Of a stretch of DNA of 64,000 nucleotides, positions 26,463 through 36,911 are shown one piece after another. Origin of the DNA: an uncultured Actinomycetes bacterium (GTDB lineage Bacteria; Actinomycetota; Actinomycetes; Nanopelagicales; Nanopelagicaceae); the NCBI GenBank assembly GCA_903827945.1, contig CAIKKN010000033.1:1-64000 (forward strand), given 5' to 3'. The translations under genes were made by a program, and so were the position numbers. Under the pieces are notes generated by a model. It saw only the letters and a list, made by a program, of their open reading frames with translations. It did not search any database and was not told the DNA's origin. The number at the start of each line of letters is the position of its first letter. The stretch's first letter is position 1.

Positions 26463-28136
26463 ATGTCTAATATGAAACCGCGTTCTGGTTTAGTCACCGA
26501 TGGTCTTGAGCGCTCACCAGCTCGCGGCATGTTGCGCGCGGTTGGAATGGAAGATGCTGACTTTAAGAAACCACAAATTGGAATTGCTTCGTCGTGGAAC
26601 GAAATCACTCCTTGCAATCTCTCTTTGGACCGACTCGCAAAAGCGTCACGAAAAGGCGTTATTGAAGGCGGCGGATTTCCAATGCAATTTGGAACTATTT
26701 CAGTATCCGATGGTATTTCAATGGGCCACGAGGGCATGCACTTCAGCCTCGTCTCTCGCGAGGTGATTGCCGACTCCGTTGAAACAGTTATGCAAGCAGA
26801 GCGCCTAGATGGAATGGTGATGTTTGCTGGTTGCGACAAATCACTACCCGGCATGATGATGGCGGCAGCGCGTATTGATGTGGCAGCAGTTTTTGTTTAT
26901 GCAGGATCAACACTTCCAGGAAATGTCGACGGCAAGAATGTAACAATTATCGATGCCTTTGAAGCAGTTGGTGCATGTGCGCGAGGTTTGATTTCCGAAG
27001 AAGAAGTTGATCGTATTGAACGTGCAATTTGCCCAGGTGAAGGTGCCTGCGGCGGTATGTACACAGCAAACACAATGGCTGCAGTCGGAGAAGCAATCGG
27101 TCTCTCACTTCCTGGATCTGCGTCACCTCCATCAGTTGATCATCGCCGTGATGATTATGCTGTTGCCTCTGGGGCGGCAGTTATCGAGCTCATCCGCCAA
27201 GGAATTACGACAAGAGATATCTTGACTAAGAAAGCATTTGAAAATGCAATCACGGTTGTGATGGCACTCGGTGGCTCCACAAATGCTGTACTCCATTTGT
27301 TGGCGCTGGCCAGCGAAGCCGAAGTTGAATTAACACTTGAAGATTTTCAAGTAATTAGCTCACGAGTCCCACTACTTGCTGATGTGAAGCCTTTTGGAAA
27401 ATATGTGATGACTGACGTTGACAAAGTGGGCGGAATTCCTGTTGTGCTACGCGCGCTTCTCGACGCAGGTTTATTACATGGAGATGCGCTAACGGTCACC
27501 GGTAAGACAATGGCAGAAAATCTTGCACACGTTAAACCTCTTGATCCAGACGGAGAAGTTCTGCACTCAATAAAGAGTCCACTTTCCGTTGGCGGCGGCA
27601 TCACAATTCTTAAAGGTTCACTTGCTCCCGAAGGCGCTGTTTGTAAAACCGCTGGAGTTGGAGTGGATGAATTTGAAGGACCGGCGCGAGTATTTGAACG
27701 AGAGCAAGCTGCGATGGAAGCCCTTGAAAACGGAACCATCAAAGCAGGTGACGCGATTGTCATTCGCTATGAAGGTCCTAAAGGAGGACCAGGAATGCGC
27801 GAGATGTTGATGATTACTGGCGCAATAAAAGGTGCTGGTCTTGGTAAATCCACCCTGCTTCTTACTGATGGTCGCTTCTCTGGAGGAAGTACAGGTCTCT
27901 GTGTTGGCCATGTTGCCCCTGAAGCTGTCGATGGGGGACCTATTGCATTTGTTAAGGATGGCGATCGAATTCGCATTAATACTGTGACTCGTCAACTTGA
28001 TTTACTTGTTGATGAAGAAACCATGGCCGAACGCCGTAAACACTTCACTCCTGTGCCACATAAGTACAAGCGGGGAGTCTTGGCGAAGTATTCAAAGGTC
28101 GTTGGATCGGCGTCACAAGGTGCAGTCACGTCCTAA
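26463..28136 (+). CDS. ilvD: Dihydroxy-acid dehydratase
   Basis: IlvD dehydrates dihydroxy acids to the 2-keto acids of valine and isoleucine using an iron-sulfur cluster. The 557-aa protein has cluster cysteines in [11 protein letters not shown] (about 124) and [11 protein letters not shown] (about 195), the carbamylated-Lys region, and [14 protein letters not shown] near the C-terminus. Length is normal. It opens the branched-chain block but is separated from ilvB by an attenuator-like leader, so ilvD and ilvBNC may be controlled separately. Confidence 0.96.
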
Positions 28137-28160
28137 ATAATGAGACTTACATCTCAGGGG

Positions 28161-28189
28161 TTGACTGCCTCCTGAAGGTCGGCGAGAAT
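28161..28189 (+). promoter_or_regulatory. Promoter of the ilvB leader
   Basis: TTGACT (28161-28166), a 17-nt spacer, and GAGAAT (28184-28189) form the best promoter in the window. The -10 ends exactly 6 nt before the ATG of the leader peptide, so the transcript should begin at or next to that start codon. Confidence 0.75.
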
Positions 28190-28195
28190 ACGCAC

Positions 28196-28243
28196 ATGGC
28201 ATCAGATAAGAAAGCTGTCGTGATTCGAGAGCGTGCGATCTAA
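28196..28243 (+). CDS. Putative ilvB leader peptide (15 aa)
   Basis: The frame reads MASDKKAVVIRERAI then TAA. It has Val-Val-Ile at codons 8-10 and a final Ile, the amino acids made by the downstream genes. It starts about where transcription should begin and has no Shine-Dalgarno sequence, so it would be translated as a leaderless message. A long hairpin covers its stop codon and a terminator follows 18 nt later. Leader-peptide attenuation of ilv genes is established in Corynebacterium ilvBNC and other bacteria; this peptide is inferred by analogy. Confidence 0.7.
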   Translation: MASDKKAVVIRERAI

Positions 28244-28261
28244 GCAAGACGATCGCGCGCT
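28230..28261 (+). promoter_or_regulatory. Pause-type hairpin over the leader peptide stop codon
   Basis: AGCGTGCGATC (28230-28240) pairs over 11 positions, one a T-G wobble, with GATCGCGCGCT (28251-28261) around a 10-nt loop containing the TAA stop. A ribosome finishing the leader would melt it; one stalled at Val-Val-Ile would sit at its foot. It abuts the terminator without overlapping it, so the antiterminator form is not obvious by eye. Confidence 0.6.
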
Positions 28262-28290
28262 AACCCTCAGTGGAAAAACTGAGGGTTTTC
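28262..28290 (+). terminator. Intrinsic terminator upstream of ilvB (attenuator)
   Basis: AACCCTCAGT (28262-28271) and ACTGAGGGTT (28278-28287) form a perfect 10-bp stem with loop GGAAAA, followed by further T residues (TTCTCATTT). It lies between the leader peptide and ilvB, 38 nt before the ilvB start, so unregulated it would block ilvBNC transcription from the leader promoter. Confidence 0.85.
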
Positions 28291-28327
28291 TCATTTAACA
28301 ATCTAAACGCACCGGAAGGAGATGAAC

Positions 28328-30078
28328 ATGACAAACAGCAACGCAGAATCAGTAACAGGGGCGCAGTCCCTCGTGAAATCTTTGGAGCATGCAGGCGTCG
28401 ATGTGATGTTCGGAATCCCGGGCGGTGCAATTCTTCCTGCATATGATCCAATTTTTGATTCTAAAATTCGCCACATCTTGGTTCGCCACGAACAAGGCGC
28501 AGGCCATGCAGCGACAGGTTATGCGCAAGTAACTGGACGCGTTGGAGTTTGTATTGCAACATCAGGACCAGGTGCAACAAACCTTGTGACTCCTCTTGCT
28601 GACGCTCAAATGGATTCAGTTCCTGTCGTAGCAATCACAGGTCAAGTGAATTCAACATCAATCGGCACTGATGCTTTTCAGGAAGCCGATATCCGCGGAA
28701 TAACAATGCCTGTTACTAAACATAACTTCCTAGTAACAAATCCTAAAGATATTCCTCACGCAATTGCTGCCGCATTTCATATCGCATCAACAGGTCGACC
28801 AGGGGCTGTATTGGTGGACATTGCAAAGGATGCGCTTTCCGCAAAGACCACTTTTGATTTTCCAACTTCACTAAATCTTGCTGGTTACAAACCTAAGATG
28901 GTTCCTAGTGAGAGCGATGTAAGAGATGCAGCGCGTCTAATTGCTGAATCAAAGCAACCAGTACTTTACGTAGGTGGCGGGGTAATTCGCTCTAATGCAA
29001 GTAAAGAACTTATGAAACTTGCAGAATTAACCGGCGCTCCAGTTGTTACAACCTTGATGGCACTCGGTGCTTTCCCTGACAGCCATCCACAACATTTGGG
29101 AATGCCTGGAATGCATGGAACTGTTGCGGCAGTAACAGCGCTACAAAAAGCAGATCTTCTTATTACCCTTGGCGCTCGATTTGATGATCGCGTCACAGGA
29201 AAACTTTCTTCCTTTGCTCCAAACGCCAAAGTTATTCACGCGGATATCGATCCTGCGGAAATCGGCAAATTGCGCCGAGTAGATGTGCCTTTAGTAGGAG
29301 ATCTTAAAAACACCATTGATGCCCTTATTCCGGCACTTAAAGCGGAATTCAAGAAGAGCCAACCGGATATTGGGGCTTGGATTAAGCAAGTAACAGGATG
29401 GCGCGAAACATATCCGTTGGGTTACGACCACCAGCCGACGGCGCACTTTCCCCTCAATATGTAATTGAAAGACTTGGAAAAATTGCTGGGCCTGAAGCTA
29501 TTTATGTTGCGGGCGTAGGGCAACACCAGATGTGGGCTTCTCAGTTTGTTCAGTACGAGCGCCCTCGCAGTTGGTTGAATTCAGGCGGTTTAGGAACCAT
29601 GGGTTACGCAGTTCCCGCTGCGATGGGTGCAAAAGTGGGAGCACCAGATCGCACAGTTTGGGCGATTGATGGAGATGGTTGTTTCCAGATGACAAATCAA
29701 GAACTTACAACCTGCGCACTCAATGGAATTCCAATCAAAATTGCAATCATCAATAATGAAAGCCTTGGCATGGTTCGCCAATGGCAATCACTGTTCTATA
29801 ACGAGCGCTATTCCAATACTGATTTACACTCAAAGAGAATTCCAGATTTTGCAAAACTTGGTGAAGCTATGGGCTGTGTCGGATTACGCGCAGAATCGCG
29901 AGATCAAGTAGACGCTGTTATTGAAAAAGCAATGTCAATTAACGATCAACCAGTTGTGGTGGATTTTAGTGTTCATCGAGATGCAATGGTGTGGCCGATG
30001 GTTGCTGCTGGAACATCTAATGACTCAATAACTCTCGCGAGATCTCTCGCGCCCGTCTGGGATTCACAGGAGCTCTAA
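28328..30078 (+). pseudogene. ilvB: Acetolactate synthase large subunit, frameshifted as sequenced
   Basis: AHAS joins two pyruvates, or pyruvate and 2-ketobutyrate, using TPP. The first frame (to 29464) encodes the N-terminal TPP domain with the catalytic Glu in [12 protein letters not shown] and the central domain; the second frame, open through 29398-30078, encodes the C-terminal TPP domain with [14 protein letters not shown]. Reading moves -1 near 29428: YPLGYD joins [12 protein letters not shown] if one C is restored to the CC at 29428-29429. No slippery heptamer is seen. ATG 28328 has AAGGAG 7 nt upstream, better spaced than ATG 28322. Intact neighbours favour a sequencing error or very recent mutation. 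Confidence 0.85.
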
Positions 30079-34236: not shown

Positions 34237-35322
34237 ATGAAGATCAACCTCAATCCAAATTCGCAGCCTGCAAGTGATTCTTCTCGCGAAGAGAAAATTG
34301 CTGCTGGAGGATTCGGTAAGTACTACACCGACAATATGGTGATTGCTGAGTGGACTGAGGCGAGCGGTTGGAGCGATGCTGAACTTAAGGCGTATGGGCC
34401 ACTTGCAATTGATCCTGCAACGTCTGTTCTTCATTACGGCCAAGAAATATTTGAAGGAATGAAGGCATATACCCAGCCAGATGGGGGAGTTAGTCTCTTT
34501 CGTCCTACTGCAAATGCCGAGCGTTTTAATAAGAGCGCCGTCCGTATGGCTCTTCCTGAAATTCCGGTTGAAGATTTTGTAGAAACTGTGCAGGCGCTTG
34601 TGAAGCAGGATATTAAGTGGGTTCCAAAAAATATTGGTGAGTCTCTTTATATTCGCCCATTCATGATTGCCACCGAAGTTGGCCTTGGAGTTCGACCATC
34701 AAATCATGCAACATATCTAGTTATCACAACTCCCGCATCTGCCTATTTTGATCCAAGCAAAGCTGTAACCGTTTGGATTTCAACAGAGTTTGTAAGGGCT
34801 GCCAAAGGTGGCACCGGCGCAGCGAAAACTGGCGGAAATTACGCAGCTTCACTCCTTGCCCAAAAACAAGCAGCAGCAGAAGGATGCGACCAAGTCGTGT
34901 GGCTAGATGCAATTGAGCACAAGTGGGTTGAAGAAATGGGCGGCATGAACCTTTACTTCGTAAAGGGCCAAGGTAAAGACGCAACAATCTTTACTCCCAA
35001 ACTTACTGGAACACTTCTTGCTGGCATAACTCGCGACTCCATTCTTACCGTCGCTAAAGATTTGGGTTACAAAGTTGAAGAAGGAATGATTTCAACAGAT
35101 GAATGGCGCGATGGCGTGGCATCAGGTGAAATCACGGAGATTTTTGCATGTGGAACCGCTGCAGTTGTTTCGCCAATCGGTATGGCAAAGAGCGCTCAAG
35201 GCGAATGGAAAACTGGAGATGGCGAGCCAGGGCAAATCACTATGGAAATTCGAAATCATTTGCTTGGCATTCAGCACGGAACAATTGAAGATAAGCATGG
35301 CTGGAACGTGCGAGTTAAATAA
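34237..35322 (+). CDS. ilvE: Branched-chain amino acid aminotransferase
   Basis: IlvE makes Leu, Ile and Val from the keto acids with glutamate as donor, using PLP. The 361-aa class IV aminotransferase has LHYGQEIFEGMKAY, IRPFMIATE, the PLP-lysine region TGGNYAASLLAQKQA, and the signature EEMGGMNLYFV. The ATG directly follows the leuB stop and the stop overlaps cimA by one base. Length is typical of the actinobacterial long form. Confidence 0.95.
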   Translation: MKINLNPNSQPASDSSREEKIAAGGFGKYYTDNMVIAEWTEASGWSDAELKAYGPLAIDPATSVLHYGQEIFEGMKAYTQPDGGVSLFRPTANAERFNKSAVRMALPEIPVEDFVETVQALVKQDIKWVPKNIGESLYIRPFMIATEVGLGVRPSNHATYLVITTPASAYFDPSKAVTVWISTEFVRAAKGGTGAAKTGGNYAASLLAQKQAAAEGCDQVVWLDAIEHKWVEEMGGMNLYFVKGQGKDATIFTPKLTGTLLAGITRDSILTVAKDLGYKVEEGMISTDEWRDGVASGEITEIFACGTAAVVSPIGMAKSAQGEWKTGDGEPGQITMEIRNHLLGIQHGTIEDKHGWNVRVK

Positions 35323-36911
35323 TGACAATCTCCGATGCTTTTCATATCTACGACACCACTCTTCGCGATGGTGCGCAGCAAGAAGGTCTCAATCTTTCGG
35401 TTCATGACAAGCTTGCAATCGCACGACACCTAGATGACCTTGGCGTTGGATTTATTGAAGGCGGATGGCCAGGAGCGAATCCCAAGGATACCGAATTTTT
35501 TAAGCGCGCCCAGAGCGAACTCAAACTTATGAACGCAACCTTTGTCGCATTCGGAGCAACGCGTCGCCCCAATGTAAAAGCAGCCGATGACGTACTGCTT
35601 CGCGCTCTTGCAGATTCAGGTGCTCCCGTAGTGACACTTGTTGCAAAGAGCCATGATCGACACGTAGATCTTGCTTTAAAGACAAATCTTGATGAGAACC
35701 TTGCAATGATTAAGGACTCAATTCAATTTCTGAAGGGAAATGGACAGCGTGTTTTCTTGGACGCAGAACATTTCTTCGATGGTTATAAATCAAATCGTAA
35801 TTATGCTCTTGAAGTCATCCGTGTGGCCATGGAAGCGGGCGCAGATGTCGCAGCTCTCTGTGATACAAATGGCGGAATGCTTCCGGATGAATTGCAGCAA
35901 GTTGTCCATGATGTATTGCAAAGCTCATCAGCTCGACTCGGTATTCATTGTCACAATGACACCGGTTGTGCGATTGCAAACTCACTTGCAGCAGTTGAAG
36001 CCGGCGTAACCCACGTTCAAGGCACTCTCAATGGTTATGGAGAGCGCACCGGAAACGCGGACTTAGTTTCGATCATTGCAAACTTAGAATTGAAGAAGAA
36101 CAAGCCGGTTCTCCCTGCTGGATCACTTCGTGAGTCTTTCCGTATCGCTCATGCTGTTGCTGAAGTAACTAATGTTTCCCCAAGTCCTCGCCAGCCATAC
36201 GTTGGAGTCTCGGCCTTCGCACATAAAGCGGGGCTACACGCATCCGCTATCAAAGTAGACCCAAATCTTTATCAACATGAAGATCCTGCAACTGTTGGAA
36301 ACGATATGCGTATGTTGGTATCTGATATGGCAGGACGGGCATCCATCGAGTTGAAGTCTCTCGAACTTGGAGTTGATCTTGGCGACGATAAAGATGTAGT
36401 CACTCGTGTCGTTGCTCGCGTAAAAGAAATGGAATCCAGGGGCTTTACTTTTGAAGCAGCCGATGCATCATTTGAACTTCTTTTGCTTGAAGAACTAAAC
36501 GGAAAGCGTCCCCAATTTTTTGAGCTTGAAGACTGGACCACAAGCGTCCACGGTGGGGATGAAGCAACCGTAACATCGAGTGCTACCGTCACGATTAAAG
36601 CTAAAGGTGAAACGATTAAAGCAGTTGGTTCTGGAAATGGCCCAGTGAACGCCATTGATATGGCCATTCGTTCCGGGTTGGAAAAGATTTATCCTGAACT
36701 TTCCAAGCTTGAACTCACAGATTACAAAGTGCGAATCCTTGAAGGACGTCTGGGAACTGGCGCAGTAACTCGCGTACTTGTTGAAACCAGCGACGGAGAA
36801 GGCGAATGGAGCACGATTGGCGTTCACGAAAACGTGATTGCAGCTTCTGCAATGGCCCTTGAAGATGCCGTCACATTCGGACTTCTTCGCCAAGGCCGTA
36901 AGCCAGAGTAA
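35322..36911 (+). CDS. cimA: (R)-citramalate synthase
   Basis: CimA condenses pyruvate and acetyl-CoA to citramalate, a threonine-independent route to 2-ketobutyrate and isoleucine. The 529-aa protein has the HMGL-like TIM barrel opening IYDTTLRDGAQQEG, the metal-binding segment GIHCHNDTGCA, AFAHKAGLHASA, and a C-terminal LeuA-type allosteric dimer domain. The pattern FIEGGWPGANPKD fits CimA better than LeuA. It ends the serA-leuB-ilvE-cimA run. Confidence 0.92.
   Translation: MTISDAFHIYDTTLRDGAQQEGLNLSVHDKLAIARHLDDLGVGFIEGGWPGANPKDTEFFKRAQSELKLMNATFVAFGATRRPNVKAADDVLLRALADSGAPVVTLVAKSHDRHVDLALKTNLDENLAMIKDSIQFLKGNGQRVFLDAEHFFDGYKSNRNYALEVIRVAMEAGADVAALCDTNGGMLPDELQQVVHDVLQSSSARLGIHCHNDTGCAIANSLAAVEAGVTHVQGTLNGYGERTGNADLVSIIANLELKKNKPVLPAGSLRESFRIAHAVAEVTNVSPSPRQPYVGVSAFAHKAGLHASAIKVDPNLYQHEDPATVGNDMRMLVSDMAGRASIELKSLELGVDLGDDKDVVTRVVARVKEMESRGFTFEAADASFELLLLEELNGKRPQFFELEDWTTSVHGGDEATVTSSATVTIKAKGETIKAVGSGNGPVNAIDMAIRSGLEKIYPELSKLELTDYKVRILEGRLGTGAVTRVLVETSDGEGEWSTIGVHENVIAASAMALEDAVTFGLLRQGRKPE

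Follow-up and report, generated by a model that had tools for sequence, protein, structure and literature searches.

A predicted leaderless leader peptide and two abutting hairpins form a probable attenuator upstream of ilvB in a freshwater actinomycete

Organization of the Locus

The window, a stretch of 64,000 nt from the genome of an uncultured member of the Nanopelagicaceae (Actinomycetes), contains the gene cluster ilvBNC-serA-leuB-ilvE-cimA, and those of its features that are described below are on the forward strand. The first gene, ilvB (28328–30078), encodes the large subunit of acetolactate synthase and is preceded by the Shine-Dalgarno sequence GGAAGGAG (28314–28321). It is split into two frames (28322–29464 and 29398–30078) by a break near 29431, a single-base difference from locus L008; because most relatives have one intact ilvB frame of about 590 codons, the break is probably an assembly error. 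The gene cimA (35322–36911), a homologue of which is recognized as citramalate synthase by TIGR00977, has a start that overlaps the stop codon of ilvE (35322) in the family of the window.

Upstream of ilvB a −35 box (TTGACT, 28161–28166) and a −10 box (GAGAAT, 28184–28189) are separated by a spacer of 17 nt, and direct reading and a promoter scan placed 6 nt between GAGAAT and an ATG at 28196. Only 9 of 12 promoter positions agree with the consensus; the promoter was assigned on the basis of its conservation (see below) and not of this score. The ATG sits exactly at the predicted +1 (around 28196), and by this promoter spacing the transcript is predicted to be leaderless. The frame has a length of 15 codons (ATG GCA TCA GAT AAG AAA GCT GTC GTG ATT CGA GAG CGT GCG ATC TAA; 28196–28243, stop codon at 28241–28243), and the predicted leader peptide is MASDKKAVVIRERAI. 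The putative regulatory codons GTC GTG ATT (28217–28225) encode Val8, Val9, and Ile10.

The frame is followed by two hairpins. The first hairpin, H1 (arms 28230–28240 and 28251–28261), consists of 11 pairs, including one G-U, and its loop holds the leader stop codon. It is followed, with a gap of 0 nt, by an intrinsic terminator (T) with its T-rich tail (28262–28291), in which a stem of 10 perfect pairs (28262–28271/28278–28287) precedes TTCTC. All elements of the preliminary description, i.e., promoter, ATG, 15-codon frame, H1, and terminator, were thus recovered base for base. The transcript 28196–28293 folds with −40.3 kcal/mol (z = −4.88), and none of 200 shuffled sequences was equally stable. 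A search of the region 28100–28400 with 4227 Rfam models yielded no match at E-values up to 10. The sequence CTCAGGGG (28153–28160), which is similar to the 3′ arm of the terminator, was dropped because it precedes the promoter.

The −35 box is adjoined by the palindrome TGAGACTTACATCTCA (28141–28156), a candidate operator for an LtbR/NdgR-like regulator of the IclR type, and TGAGA-N6-TCTCA was found at this place in 41 of 47 distinct relatives. The only IclR-family gene found in the genome is divergent from leuCD, as is typical of ndgR/ltbR, and their short intergenic region contains the genome's only exact TCTCA-N5-TGAGA (L153, 4833–4847). In S. coelicolor NdgR binds before ilvB (PMC4340878); the letters of its motif, GTCCAC..GGAC, do not match the palindrome, and the agreement is limited to the 5-5-5 geometry and the gene context. 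The palindrome is likely an LtbR/NdgR operator, at which a bound protein would exert a second control, and the palindromes before ilvB and at IclR-leuCD suggest an LtbR/NdgR-like regulon. A second exact TGAGA-N6-TCTCA in the genome lies within a coding frame that is apparently part of dnaX; this occurrence is probably due to chance.

Conservation and Spacing of the Leader Element

The upstream regions of ilvB were gathered from relatives and from genomes of the class; close relatives and some duplicated genomes are among the loci counted here, and the counts are therefore not independent. The frame, the promoter spacing, and the hairpins recurred in almost every close relative examined, with leaders such as MTSSVVIRERAI and MKSSVVIRERAI, and the 6-nt gap between the −10 box and the start codon was kept in nearly all of them. 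For a class-wide distance test the start codons were chosen without reference to the −10 box. TTGAC was located 35, 36, or 37 nt ahead of the leader start codon at 113 of 124 loci, and several of the exceptions look like misassigned starts (e.g., locus L059). Because this distance is fixed, the start codon is predicted to lie at +1 throughout the class, and the leaders would be leaderless.

H1 and T covaried in an alignment of 32 sequences. Twelve pairs were changed on both sides, and the number of cells changed on both sides was 35, compared with 11.2 in shuffles (0 of 500 shuffles); the covariation score was 0.240 versus 0.156. The fraction of paired cells in the two stems was 88.9%, and it dropped to 25–50% after sliding by one to three columns. 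A separate anchored covariation test had the same outcome for both stems. A covariance model built from this alignment had matches in 50 of the 51 relatives chosen and in 170 of the 197 genomes of the class, and it had one match in the genome of the window (1.5 Mb, 34 contigs), at 28214–28294. The preliminary description had proposed a Val/Ile-sensing frame with a leaderless start upstream of ilvB, and it had named loss of the frame or of the terminator in homologues, or a distant transcript start, as arguments against it. As far as sequence comparison can tell, the opposite was found: the homologues keep the Val/Ile codons, the terminator, and the promoter spacing, and their stems covary.

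The two hairpins are in direct contact (gap of 0 nt) at 110 of the 124 loci, while the gap was 1 nt at 12 loci and 2–3 nt at 2 loci. When the stems were extended independently of each other at 112 distinct loci, the overlap was 0 at 81 loci, a gap of 1 nt was present at 12 loci, and an overlap of 1–5 nt at 17 loci. The run of codons for branched-chain amino acids (BCAA) ended 4–5 nt ahead of H1 at 103 of 124 loci. In contrast, the position of the stop codon varied, from directly after the last Ile codon (as in MFTTVVVVI) to five codons later, as in the family of the window. Because both distances are fixed while the stop codon shifts, selection appears to keep the sensor codons at a set distance from H1 and to maintain the contact between H1 and T, and the conserved feature is the stall position relative to H1. 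Abutment of the hairpins without overlap is thus a class-wide rule.

A Second Element Upstream of cimA

In many class genomes the covariance model had a second match, which in several of them was on the strand of ilvB and about 9–17 kb downstream of this gene. In all eight cases that were examined first it was situated directly before a cimA-like gene, and one of these eight proteins scored 641 bits with TIGR00977 (citramalate synthase, cutoff 450). Therefore, 96 cimA upstream regions were assembled, with a few genomes represented twice. Two successive Ile codons were present just before H1 at 60 of 68 distinct cimA loci with H1 and T, compared with 2 of 115 ilvB loci, where the counterpart is Val-Val-Ile (Fisher p 1e-36, without correction for relatedness and with the codons counted in any reading frame). 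Typical cimA leaders are MSSISIIGRRAG, MAQALIIG, and MLSFAMIIGSRRAGPQ. The gap between H1 and T was 0 or 1 nt at 65 of the 68 loci. A −10-like box was found 6 nt ahead of the leader start at 32 of 61 loci; the start had been picked to suit such a box, which makes this a weaker test than that of the ilvB promoter. Citramalate synthase feeds the isoleucine branch, and thus the sensor codons of the cimA element match the product. This natural codon swap supports amino acid sensing by a ribosome, because the codons at the equivalent place follow the gene product.

This paralogous element, the cimA twin, was found in most Actinomycetes examined outside the family of the window (e.g., L215 at 370–450). 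The genome of the window is devoid of it, and its cimA gene is inside the ilvB gene cluster. A leader before cimA was sought in the family of the window and none was found, as expected from the overlap of cimA with the ilvE stop codon; the Val-Val-Ile switch before ilvB could govern both genes in this family. A literature search confined to one paper collection yielded no report of the cimA element.

Proposed Mechanism and Alternative Explanations

The conserved frame, the terminator, the promoter spacing, and the covariation of H1 and T support the earlier proposal of an attenuator upstream of ilvB, and the element is very probably (about 85%) a leaderless, ribosome-mediated transcription attenuator of the ilvBNC-serA-leuB-ilvE-cimA cluster. 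The RNA would start at or within one nucleotide of 28196, as predicted from the promoter, and the ribosome would begin on the 5′-terminal AUG. If Val- or Ile-tRNA is scarce, the ribosome would stall at codons 8–10 and H1 would remain free. By closing right at the terminator base, H1 would then prevent the lower stem from being completed within the RNA exit channel or at its mouth, the terminator would stay incomplete, and RNA polymerase would proceed into ilvB and the downstream genes. If Val and Ile are plentiful, the ribosome would reach the stop codon, which lies in the loop of H1, and cover the 5′ arm of H1, so that the terminator would form alone and transcription would end. H1 would thus be both antiterminator and sensor of the ribosome position, and it would oppose the terminator by abutment and not by shared bases. 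The direction of the response, read-through upon stalling, is proposed by analogy to M. tuberculosis, where replacement of LVVI by AAAA in the ilvB1 leader abolished induction and resulted in low, non-inducible expression (PMC13236596). The S. coelicolor ilvB leader speaks against the proposed mechanism, as replacements of candidate codons in it are reported to have been without effect (PMC1262725).

The leader was folded with a ribosome at different positions, assuming a footprint that extends 12 nt beyond the first nucleotide of the A-site codon. All 11 pairs of H1 were left when the ribosome waited at Val8, eight at Val9, five at Ile10, and none at the stop codon. The terminator, however, formed at every ribosome position in equilibrium folding. 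Hence, the folding check suggested in the preliminary description revealed that retention of H1 depends on the stall codon, but the terminator was unaffected and no switch based on mutually exclusive pairing was seen. When the leader in the window was searched for helices that involve the terminator arms and other leader sequences, only weak ones, short or A/U-rich, were found, which agrees with the earlier remark that the hairpins abut without overlap and that an antiterminator was not visible. One candidate, 28209–28216/28284–28291, was rejected as weak, with only 2 G-C among its 8 pairs. Because the terminator always folds and a base-pairing antiterminator was not found, the ON state would require a kinetic or steric step.

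The same results bear on a classical attenuator with mutually exclusive base pairing, in which the antiterminator shares bases with the terminator. The fast attenuator of C. glutamicum, with its boundary overlap of 3 nt (PMC11857589), and the loci with short overlaps of independently extended stems would fit this explanation; however, a convincing base-sharing antiterminator, the hallmark of trp/his-type attenuators, was not found in the window, where the overlap is 0 as at most distinct loci, and the alternative helices are of the poor kind described above, which makes this explanation improbable. It is somewhat less doubtful, yet still unlikely, that the sole role of H1 is to pause RNA polymerase until ribosome loading, with antitermination brought about by something else, such as a trailing ribosome or elongation factors. 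Loading of a leaderless ribosome must occur within about 100 nt of transcription, and in C. glutamicum the first hairpin has been suggested to act in pausing (PMC11857589), but pausing would leave the direct contact between H1 and T unexplained. Very unlikely is a fixed terminator that is insensitive to amino acids and simply trims transcription, control being exerted at the upstream LtbR/NdgR-type operator. The conservation of the palindrome adjoining the −35 box would be in accordance with it, and so would the S. coelicolor codon replacements without effect (PMC1262725). An insensitive element, however, explains neither the sensor frame, nor the spacing of the codons to H1, nor the Ile-Ile swap before cimA.

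Relation to Known Attenuators

The preliminary description had regarded the leaderless leader peptide as the unusual part, but this is already documented for ilvB in C. glutamicum, with a transcript start one nucleotide from the AUG (according to PMC11857589, citing Morbach 2000), in C. diphtheriae (PMC5784534), and in S. lividans (PMC8079986). The window contains the features of ilvB leader peptide attenuators, namely a BCAA-rich frame, an intrinsic terminator, and a leaderless start as judged from promoter spacing only. Its element is a further case of the known leaderless ilvB leader attenuators, which are thereby extended to freshwater Actinomycetes with small genomes.

The ilvBNC attenuator of C. 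glutamicum, or ilvB-II motif (PMC11857589, PMC10272879), which has been described only in Corynebacterium, precedes the same gene and also combines a leaderless 15-codon BCAA leader with a hairpin set against a terminator. Its antiterminator, however, has 3 nt (GCC) in common with the terminator, and a third hairpin is present, a conserved counterpart of which was not seen in the window element. The Streptomyces ilvB leader (IlvL MRTRILVLGKRVG, PMC8079986) is likewise leaderless, with a BCAA run 4–5 nt before H1 and an abutting terminator, but it has a longer H1 loop and Ile-Leu-Val-Leu instead of Val-Val-Ile. The M. tuberculosis ilvB1NC attenuator (PMC13236596), at which codon dependence has been shown, shares the gene, a terminator, and an LVVI uORF; by description, its antiterminator and terminator are mutually exclusive, unlike the hairpins of the window. 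A short leaderless ORF also senses an amino acid in the mycobacterial poly-Cys attenuators (Canestrari 2020, as cited in PMC13236596), but there it is cysteine, and PMC13236596 describes the process as translation attenuation.

Two findings go beyond this known kind, the spacing rule that holds across the class and the twin element upstream of cimA. The puzzle of the missing antiterminator is turned into a measurable rule, i.e., a zero hairpin gap and a fixed distance from the stall site to the hairpin. If abutment alone switches termination, this would be a mode of antitermination that is undescribed in the attenuator literature examined. We consider it an even bet that the Actinomycetes possess a reusable module in which a leaderless sensor peptide is combined with a position-sensing hairpin and, at zero distance, a terminator, and which acts by steric abutment without shared bases and has been duplicated with codons matched to the gene, Val/Leu/Ile for ilvB and Ile-Ile for cimA.

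Other classes of the phylum had similar ilvB leaders at some loci and lacked them at others. Leaders with BCAA codons, a hairpin, and a terminator were found outside the class at the loci L169, L175, L178, L180, L186, and L195, and that of L175 does not appear to be leaderless. Within the class, but outside the family of the window, the ilvB leaders very often have CTC GTA GTN as sensor codons. High-GC genomes generally make little use of GTA for Val, and its presence among the sensor codons may allow for sharper sensing.
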